A stretch of 64,000 nt of DNA from Mycteria americana (Eukaryota > Chordata > Aves > Ciconiiformes > Ciconiidae). The notes under the pieces were generated by a model. The model did no database searches and was not told the origin of the DNA. It saw only the letters and a program-made list of their open reading frames with translations. Both the position numbers and the translations under genes were made by a program. Positions 21,357 through 47,950 of the stretch are shown piece by piece; position 1 is the stretch's first letter, and every line of letters starts with the position of its first letter. The stretch is from positions 2,110,501 through 2,174,500 of the forward strand of contig NC_134367.1 of the NCBI RefSeq assembly GCF_035582795.1, read 5' to 3'.

Positions 21357-24300
21357 TTAGATCTCGTTGTGCTCGCTGATGCCGCCGGCAATGTCGTACT
21401 CACTGGAGCGGGGCGACATGCCCAGGTACTGCTTCAGGAACTCGCTAAACCTCTTCTGGTTGTTCCACTTCCTCGCCGACTTGCGGACCCCGATGAAGCC
21501 CCCGTACCGCTTCTGCACCCCCTTGGCCGTCGGCGCCGGCCACGAGCCGCGCGTCCCCCGTGGGAAACCGCCAAGTCGTCGGGAAATGTCCTCGGGTGGC
21601 TGCGGGAAGGCACCCGGCGCCGGTTCGACGCCTTCATCTTCAGCTTCCCGTCGCCGCAGCAGCTCGCTTACCTGCAGCGGGCTCACCGGCACCGCTGGCG
21701 CTGCCGCCACGTCGTGCCAGGGATCGTTGGCATCCTGGAGGTCGCGGGGCCGTGGGGCGGCTCGGCCGGCAGCGGCAGCGCACAGCTCCCAGGTGGCCCG
21801 CGGCACGGCTTCGCCTTCGCACTCCAGGATGCAGACCTGCACGGGAGACGCGGGGATGGGTGTCAGATGAGTTTTCGTCCCCGCGGGACTGCGGGACAGC
21901 ACTGGGTGGTGTACCCCAAATGCCAGGTGCTCCAGCATCCCCCCACATCCAGCCCGTCCAGCGGTGCAACGTGCTGGAAGACACCCATGGAAAGGCGCTG
22001 GCAGCTCATCAGCCCTTGCCTGGCCTCGTTGGGTGAGGTGTCCCCTCCCAAAACCCATTCCCGGGCTCCCAGAGGTGGTGGTGGTGGTGGAGATGCTGGG
22101 GTGCCATGGCAGCTGCTCAGCAACCCTCTCCCGACCCTCCCTAGACAGGTTCTGCTCCACGCTGGACGTGCTCCGCACTCCCTGTTGATGTCCATGCTCC
22201 CATCCTGCCACCCCATGCTCCACACTGCTGGGTCCTTCGGCCAGGCATGAGTCCAAAAAATCACCGAGTCACAGGACAGCGGAGGTGGGAAGGGACCTCT
22301 GGCATGTGCCTATGGCATGTGGTGGTACCTGGGGTTGTTCCTTCCCAGGGGCAGGACTTTGCTCTTCTCCTTGTTGAAGTTCATGAGGTTCCTACCAGCC
22401 CATTTCTCCAGGCTGGCAAGGTTCCTCTGGATGGCAGCATGACCCTGTGGTCTACCATCCACGCCTCCCAACTCTGCATCATCTGCTAACTGCTGAGGGT
22501 GCATCTGCCACATCATCCCGGTCATTAATGACGATGCCAAGGTCCTCCAGGTTTCAGTCCACCTCACTGCCCATTTATCTACCCTGTGCTTCGGCAGCTT
22601 GTCTTCAAGGATGTCATGGGAGACAACGTTAAAGCCTGATGAAAGTCAAGACAAGCTGGTTGTCTCACTGCAGAAAGCTATCAGGTTGGTCAAGCACAAT
22701 TTCCCCTTCTTAAATCCAAGCTGGCTGCTCCCCATGGCCTTCTTGTCCTTCATACGTTTGGAAATGCTTTGCAGGATTCTGTGCTCCACCACCTCTCCAA
22801 GGATTGAGGTGAGGCCAAGCAGCCCATAGCTTCCCAGATCCTCCTTCATGCCTTCCTTGAAAACAAGTGTGACATCTGCTTCCTCCCAGCCCCCAGGAAC
22901 CCGCCCCGGTTGCCACATCCCTTCAAAGGCCATCAAGAGCAGCCTCATCAAGAGCTGCCATCGGGCTTCCTCAGCACCCATGGGTGCATCCCACCACGTT
23001 TGTGTCTCATCCCTTTCCAAGAGGCCTTGTCCACCAAGGCAGGACACAGATCCGGCACTGCTGTGGGGTGATAGCCCCAAGTGGGCCGGTACCACCAAAA
23101 CCAGCACCCGGGGGAAACCATCCAGGAGAAAATCGTAGAAGAACCAAACTAGATAAATACCCAAAGAAACCAGGGCTGGAGGGCCCAGAAGGGAAGGGTT
23201 GTCTTCCCTCATGTTGAATTGTCTCCATCCCAGCGTTAACTTCATGGTGGGCTCTTTTAAATGCTTAACACCAACTGGGGGACCCCATGTTGAAGCACGT
23301 TGGCGTGTCTCATTGGTACAAGCCATCTGCAAGACCAAAACCCTTGCAAAGACTCTCTTCACCATGGGTTCATCAACTTTGCCAAGTGGGAGGTGCTACA
23401 AGTCCCAACATGGTATCTCAGGGCTGCAGTTCAAGCACGTGGCTCTGCAGCAATTGGCTATTTCCATCCCCGAGGGCAGCCAGGCTCTTAAGACAAAGAG
23501 ATAAAAGAAAAATAGTTGTCCCAAAGCGAGGTGGTGACGAGGGTCTTGTAGGCTGGAACAGCTATGAGGGTTCTTCTGGAGACACCGCGGGCATCCTGTG
23601 CTGAGCCAAGATCCTGTCCTGGGGTCTCCAAAGCTTTGGCAGGGTCCACGGCTGATGGACAGTGTCCTGGCAGTGGCCCGCGTTGGAGATGAAAGCTGAT
23701 GGATCACATGCAGGTAACAGCTCTGATGAGCACCAGCTAATAGGCTTCAAGAGGAATTACCCCAGGCATCAGGCTGAAGACCATCAGTGGTCCTATCACT
23801 CATCCACAAAACAGCTCCATGAACATCCCAGGGTCCTCAGCCATCGTGCTGTGGTCCTAATTCACATGGAAATGTCTTCTGCTACCGGGCCAGCTCGCAG
23901 TGTTTTGGGAGTCCTCAGCAAACACCAGCCAATGCTCCTCCACGTCCAGTGCTGAAACTACCTGAAGAGGCTCCTTCCAATCTTTGGCTGGCATTAACAG
24001 TGCCACCGTGGGTTTGCACTGTCCCTAGATGACTCTGGGGACCAGGACGCAGGTGATTCATCCACATCTTGAAGACCAGCTCCATCAGCTGGTCCCTGTC
24101 ATAGAATCATAGAATCATAGAATCATAGAATCATTTAGGTTGGAAAAGACCTTTAAGATCATCAAGTCCAACCATTAACCTAACGCTGCCAAGTCCACCA
24201 CTAAACCATGTCCCTAAGCACCACATCTACACAGCTTTTAAATACCTCCAGGGATGGGGACTCCACCACTTCCCTGGGCAGCCTGTTCCAATGCTTGATA

Positions 24301-46800: not shown

Positions 46801-47950
46801 TACGGAGGAACTTTGAGAAGCTATTGTGCTACCCCTTTAATTTTTTTTTTTTTTCATCTTCAAGTAGGCTCAGTTCTAATTCTCTTATTTATTTCTTTTT
46901 AAAATGTCAAACATTGATAAATGTTTTAGTTCCTGCCTACAGAAACAAGCAAATGGCTGCAGCTGAGACCAAAGCATGAACAGATTTCATTAAAATAGCT
47001 ACCCGCCAACTTGAGATAAGGAGTTTGCAAGGCCAACCTTTTCTCTACACAGACAGGTCACTGCCTTTGAAACATTTATTCTTTTCTTGGTGCAGGGGCA
47101 GAACAGCTTGAGTGAGCAAAGCTGTTTTTACTGTCTCTTTTGGAAGCCAGTTAATCATTTGCAACAACCGGTGAAATTATTTAGATTACCAGGAGCAAAT
47201 TTACATTTCCTTTCCTTAATCTTGCTGAGGAGAAGTTGGCTAACGGTAAATGGCATATGCTGTCATTTTAATTGAAAATTGTTTGACTAACTGAGCAAAT
47301 AAGTTTTGTGTTTAACTCTTTCAAGTCTCCTCAGCCAAGCACAGTCTCCCTCCCTCTTCTAGAGCTTCCGAGTCTGCTAGTAGGGTGAAACGGCGTAAAG
47401 TGGAGGAAGCTCATTTCAGCAGATGGTCCGTATAACTCCTTGACGAGCACGCCGTGCTTAAACTTGCTCCCTCTGTTCTGCACATGGCTATGCACACAGC
47501 CTTGTGCAACATCTTGATTACTATTTGAAAGTAAAAGCCTCTTCTGATAACAACCTCTCCCAATATTTGACTTGGCGGTCGCCTCTTAATAAGTGATTTT
47601 TCCGGTAATCTTTCAGAGCTTTTGTTTTCCAGATTGTCTGTACTGCACATGACAGACATTTTGTGTAGACTTTCCTCTACCTGTATAACCTGATTCTTTC
47701 TAATCTGTGTTCAGGAACTTACATCTGCCAAGGCAAGGAGCTTATTCCCCTCGGAGAAGCGTTGCTGGAGAATCCCAACATGAAATTACAAATTCCCCTG
47801 AAGAACAAGAAGTCCATGCCAGATGATCTCTGCAAGCTCCTGCATGATATGCTGGCTTTTAACCCAAAGGAAAGATTGGATGCCTTCCAACTAGAAGTCC
47901 GAATCAGGCAAATCTCCTATGGCAAAAAGCGTCAACGCTCTGTCTCATAG
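43895..47950 (+). CDS. STK35/PDIK1L-family serine/threonine kinase (three coding exons, 332 aa)
   Basis: Coding exons: 43895-44440, 45524-45740 and 47715-47950, all GT-AG, totalling 999 bases with TAG. An in-frame TGA at 43889-43891 fixes the ATG. Nearly the whole protein is a kinase domain: glycine loop GRGSYG (14-19), Lys36 in VAVK, Glu52 in [10 protein letters not shown], catalytic HRDLKSDN (162-169, Asp164), DFG (185-187), then [28 protein letters not shown] and a C-lobe ending KKRQRSVS. All key catalytic residues are present, so activity is expected. PDIK1L is 341 aa and collinear. The [18 protein letters not shown] and SACGS stretches are closer to STK35 than to PDIK1L, but many positions differ from both, so I read it as a third family member. 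Family kinases are nuclear or actin-associated in mammals; the substrate here is unknown. Two coding introns rule out a processed copy. Confidence 0.92.

Follow-up and report, generated by a model that had tools for sequence, protein, structure and literature searches.

A divergent PNOC-STK35L3 gene pair in Mycteria americana and its probable descent from a block duplicated in early vertebrates

The opioid precursor gene PNOC (minus strand) and a complete gene for an STK35-family kinase (plus strand) stand back to back and divergent on C3 of this bird. We consider it probable (about 0.85) that they are the bird copy of a conserved PNOC-STK35L3-ELP3 locus, descended from an ancestral divergent pair of opioid precursor and NKF4 (STK35/PDIK1L family) kinase genes in a block copied at 2R, a timing that we infer. 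The window, by which is meant the whole stretch of 64,000 nucleotides analysed, is C3:2110501-2174500 of a 1.35 Gb genome, in which C2, C3, C14 and C21 are contig or chromosome labels. The kinase is the known STK35L3, described in 2009 (PMC2737284), and its neighbourhood is likewise already known, so that what is gained is the link between this pair and a second one. The view that the two opioid/kinase pairs belong to one duplicated block is well supported by the evidence below and was not found stated in the literature searched. It brings together STK35L3 as described in 2009 and an opioid paralogon published in 2010, a connection likewise not found in the texts searched. If the joint block is real, the neighbouring opioid gene becomes an ancient landmark for a little-studied kinase family, one that would help to assign orthologues and to date losses.

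STK35L3 and its neighbours

An earlier note on this DNA had described PNOC and an STK35-like kinase as adjacent and divergent, and this arrangement was borne out, both genes having complete coding exons. Its figure of 9 kb between them was not reproduced: on C3 the start codons of PNOC and STK35L3 lie 15,178 bp apart, a distance taken from start codon to start codon; no 5' noncoding exons were found. Position 21357, where the noted region begins, falls at the stop codon that ends PNOC when it is read through unspliced; the spliced coding end is at 20398. Just outside the window, 357 bp beyond its end, the nearest ELP3 match begins, on the minus strand, which places STK35L3 between PNOC and ELP3; the locus therefore agrees with published STK35L3, which in opossum is found beside PNOC and ELP3 (PMC2737284), the order of the pair being reported in opossum and frog. 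The same paper lists the gene in opossum, chicken (AJ720485.1, chromosome 3), frog and five fishes and reports the gene of marsupial, chicken and frog to be split by two introns into three exons, a land-vertebrate count that the three coding exons of this bird match when coding exons alone are compared. Set against that published description, rather than against sequences, the present copy agrees in being an STK35-family kinase with three coding exons and PNOC and ELP3 as neighbours, as in opossum, and no difference was found. Both the name STK35L3 and the pairing of PNOC with STK35 were found, within the literature searched, in PMC2737284 alone. The suggestion that this copy was probably lost in mammals holds in part, in that loss has been inferred for placental mammals, while opossum keeps the gene (PMC2737284).

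STK35L3 encodes 332 aa in three plus-strand coding exons with GT/AG splice sites (PF00069 at 2.7e-49). Exon 1 (43895..44440) carries the start codon, the glycine loop GRGSYG, the VAVK lysine and HRDLK and ends in phase 0 before VADFG; exon 2 (45524..45740) holds DFG and APE and ends in phase 1; exon 3 (47715..47950) includes the stop codon. These catalytic motifs of the protein kinase domain are all intact, and the product should be an active Ser/Thr kinase. Two codons upstream of the start codon is an in-frame stop, and the protein would therefore be without the N-terminal region of human STK35L1, unless an upstream exon joins between stop and start. In the human protein that region directs nucleolar localisation, and the kinase part alone is spread over nucleus and cytoplasm (PMC2737284); STK35L3, predicted to be without this long N-terminal part, should be non-nucleolar. 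No solved NKF4 structure is named among the 60 best of 2701 PDB sequences that matched, a list headed by a calcium-dependent kinase and STK33.

Upstream of the kinase, the plus strand carries a strongly skewed, G-rich tract at 41001-43000 (GC skew 0.36 and 0.76), past which GC falls from 0.65 to 0.47. Elsewhere in the window, a neighbouring plus-strand gene at 9178..14251 (exon ends approximate) has open frames that match DUF4772 in part and include a C2H2 zinc finger near 11088; from these domains and the neighbourhood in human, we take this candidate to be ZNF395. The domain search for ZNF395 paralogues returned one row, ZNF395 itself.

Three NKF4 kinases in one genome

A genome-wide search with STK35L3 gave 21 matches with E no higher than 1e-5, three of them its own exons. 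Two loci stood out, on C14 (identities of 68% and 53% in two exons) and on C21 (66% and 61%), and the other 14 matches reached at most 39% identity; by exon, then, STK35L3 is nearer to STK35 and PDIK1L (53-68%) than to other kinases. Both of these kinase genes were assembled from the genome. The C14 kinase is named STK35 here for its divergent position next to PDYN, and the C21 kinase PDIK1L for its proximity to a stathmin (43 kb) and to an EXT-like gene (13 kb), comparable to the STMN1/EXTL1 markers in PMC2737284. Over aligned positions, STK35L3 is 62.8% identical to PDIK1L (206/328) and 62.2% identical to STK35 (202/325), while STK35 and PDIK1L are 69.4% identical to each other (229/330). 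In a tree of seven rows, all from this one species, the three group as a clade (98/98) that excludes four other kinases from the same genome, two of which are long rows; these outgroups are 4 of 7 candidate loci, the remaining three having no usable frame. The order of branching inside the clade is not settled by this seven-row, single-species tree. With STK35 and PDIK1L both in the genome, the kinase in the window cannot be the sole STK35 of birds, a reading that the earlier note had named as fatal to its own proposal.

The intron patterns of the three kinases differ. In STK35L3 a phase 0 intron precedes VADFG and a phase 1 intron follows ELLG; PDIK1L has a phase 0 intron following LYLQ, and a phase 1 intron of STK35 splits the glycine of LKGER. 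The three have no kinase-domain intron position in common, unlike PNOC and PDYN, whose first coding introns have a common position and phase (L|VC and L|AC, phase 0).

The second pair, PDYN and STK35, which the note had cited from human, was confirmed where it was checked, in this bird's genome. On C14, STK35 (minus strand) and PDYN (plus strand) are adjacent and divergent, with 8,531 bp between the PDYN start codon and the STK35 ATG used; a further in-frame ATG of STK35 lies 84 bp upstream of the latter. The C14 pair thus resembles that on C3 in being an opioid precursor and an NKF4 kinase (STK35, or STK35L1) in divergent orientation, but it has another peptide, another kinase intron and a kinase frame that is longer at the N-terminus. 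PDIK1L (STK35L2), in turn, is an NKF4 kinase about as close to STK35L3, but its one intron is at another place and it stands beside a stathmin and an EXT-like gene rather than an opioid precursor over the search cut-off. Across C14:17232458-17248877, PDYN is intact and the N-lobe exon of STK35 is present; the PDYN precursor is 232 residues long and contains two YGGFM cores, one YGGFL core and a degenerate one, the same core set as that given for bird prodynorphin in a review table (PMC10280075). For chicken the literature on PDYN disagrees, the gene being reported missing in PMC2865548 and shown in the later review (PMC10280075), and chicken STK35 was found truncated (PMC2737284).

Families common to four chromosomes

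Evidence for a larger block comes from the families that recur on C2, C3, C14 and C21, namely opioid precursors, NKF4 kinases, stathmins, XK-related genes and EXT-like genes. An opioid domain search (E up to 10) placed three of its 25 rows over the cut-off, at loci on C2, C14 and C3. The C2 locus has a frame with seven YGGF cores and is PENK, the C14 locus is PDYN and the C3 locus is PNOC; POMC is also on C3, about 347 kb from PNOC. Stathmins (8 rows) occur on C2, C3, C14 and C21 only, at 409, 93 and 43 kb from the three NKF4 kinases (the last on C21), and a rough estimate under uniform placement, made post hoc and ignoring gene clustering, gives 5e-9 for three such co-locations. XK-related genes (25 rows) are on all four chromosomes and also on C1 and C10, and EXT-like genes (16 rows) are on C3, C21 and C2 and also on C5 and C7, the C3 member lying 348 kb from the kinase. 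The search with STK35L3 at E up to 1e-5 found no NKF4 kinase on C2, and the opioid domain search found no precursor over the cut-off on C21; a fourfold history therefore needs two losses. A kinase match on C2, 186 kb from PENK, was considered as an NKF4 gene beside that precursor and rejected, being just 38% identical over query residues 147-242 only. MOS lies near PENK.

An opioid paralogon has been placed on chicken chromosomes 2, 3, 20 and 23 (PMC2865548, 2010), and the fourfold pattern seen here on C2, C3, C14 and C21 is the same as that of the opioid peptide/receptor paralogon described there. The difference is that the main text of that paper names no STK35 gene ('stk35' and 'kinase' each having 0 occurrences), so that the NKF4 family would be an addition. 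Since the present analysis covered one vertebrate genome, the date proposed for the duplication, later than the tunicate split and earlier than the diversification of jawed vertebrates, rests on published species lists (PMC2737284).

Origin of the pair

Two divergent opioid/NKF4 pairs in one genome, together with the families common to their chromosomes, make block duplication the best explanation. One ancestral divergent pair, inside a larger block, would have been copied in two early vertebrate genome doublings to give four copies, of which those on C3 (PNOC with STK35L3) and C14 (PDYN with STK35) would have kept both genes, that on C21 the kinase alone (PDIK1L) and that on C2 the peptide alone (PENK), the C3 kinase being lost later in placental mammals. 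The earlier note's proposal of a 2R block thus stands as regards the two pairs, the stathmin, XK-related and EXT-like genes on the same chromosomes and the fit to the paralogon of PMC2865548; the kinase, however, had already been published in 2009 as STK35L3 (PMC2737284).

That the kinase might instead have arisen recently, in birds only, as a copy of STK35 or PDIK1L inserted beside PNOC is extremely improbable. The differing intron patterns are what would be expected of a copy moved by another route, yet the introns within STK35L3 mean that it is not a fresh retrocopy, and its near-equal identity of 62-63% to two separate paralogues, lower than the 69% between those two, speaks against a gene nested inside either, the other outcome that the note had named as refuting it. 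Orthologues reported in opossum, frog and five fishes, in opossum together with PNOC and ELP3 (PMC2737284), point the same way, and on the identity values and these orthologues the idea was rejected. Separate formation of the two pairs, with NKF4 genes spread by independent copying and coming to lie beside PNOC and PDYN by chance, is what would follow from the 2009 paper, which calls the kinase loci 'distinct' in synteny and reads the intron differences as independent origin (PMC2737284). The absence of common kinase introns and of common noncoding sequence speaks for it; the divergent orientation seen twice and the presence of stathmin, XK-related and EXT-like genes on the same chromosomes speak against it, and the two loci cannot be called distinct, PNOC and PDYN being paralogues that have an intron in common. 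Independent origin of this kind is accordingly judged unlikely, and different losses from an intron-rich ancestor seem more likely to us as the source of the kinase introns; the Ciona gene has nine exons (PMC2737284).

A further possibility is that control elements common to PNOC and STK35L3 hold the pair together, the gene order reported in opossum and frog being found again in this bird. In its broader form, the ancestral pair would have been under partly shared control, and coupling rather than chance would be the reason why PNOC-STK35L3 and PDYN-STK35 have stayed together in fish, frogs, birds and marsupials; the break at PNOC in placental mammals would then have altered kinase signalling in nociceptin neurons. 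Both forms are judged unlikely. By blastn, no conserved noncoding elements were found between the PNOC-STK35L3 and PDYN-STK35 intergenic stretches: two matches were in kinase coding sequence (E 2e-9 and 0.007), three in peptide-coding exons (E 0.02-0.08) and all others were at E of at least 0.28. Beyond the kinase exon, tblastx yielded short scattered pieces among the matches listed, and these were not used. Shared control is made less plausible by work in rat neurons, where an enhancer lying about 45 kb upstream of Pdyn, once activated, increased Pdyn without increasing Stk35 (PMC10631760). Placental mammals, moreover, keep PNOC although STK35L3 is reported to be missing from them.

PNOC and its two C-termini

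The PNOC precursor gene is complete on the minus strand (PF01160 at 9.4e-15 with the read-through form). Its first coding exon (28717-28598) encodes the signal peptide and ends in a phase 0 donor, the main exon (21836-21404) contains nociceptin and ends in the donor CCA|GTGAGT, and the last (20447-20398) supplies the spliced C-terminus TFRHRIPAPSARHRQN of a 200-aa precursor; reading through the donor gives an alternative C-terminus (21357..21403) and a 199-aa precursor. Alternative 3' forms (N23K/N27K) exist for the mouse gene as well. Within the PNOC intron, minus-strand open frames at 22646-23395 and about 24640-26987 resemble pieces of reverse transcriptase and endonuclease and presumably belong to CR1-type LINEs. 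PNOC is probably an ordinary secreted precursor, which would be cut at dibasic sites to yield nociceptin. The first tyrosine of nociceptin, changed to phenylalanine in mammals, belongs to one sequence common to other tetrapods (PMC10280075), and this bird has the tyrosine in agreement with that account.

Bird pronociceptin has been described with two C-termini, one of them ending TFRHRVPAPSARHRQN (or I for V), scattered over bird orders, the cause of which 'is not readily apparent' (PMC10280075, 2023). Both are contained in this one gene: the first published C-terminus, in its I variant, results when the exon at 20447 is spliced in, and read-through of the donor at 21404 gives the second exactly. 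Because a single PNOC locus encodes both, the simplest reading of its sequence is that the two forms reflect alternative splicing of one gene, or different choices made in annotating it. No explanation of them was found in the literature searched, the zebra finch neuropeptidome being silent on the point in the part available (PMC2873334), and the extra PNOC exon offers one that is simple and testable. Just before nociceptin, at 21580-21530 on the minus strand, lies a relic opioid core comparable to the chicken remnant in PMC2865548.
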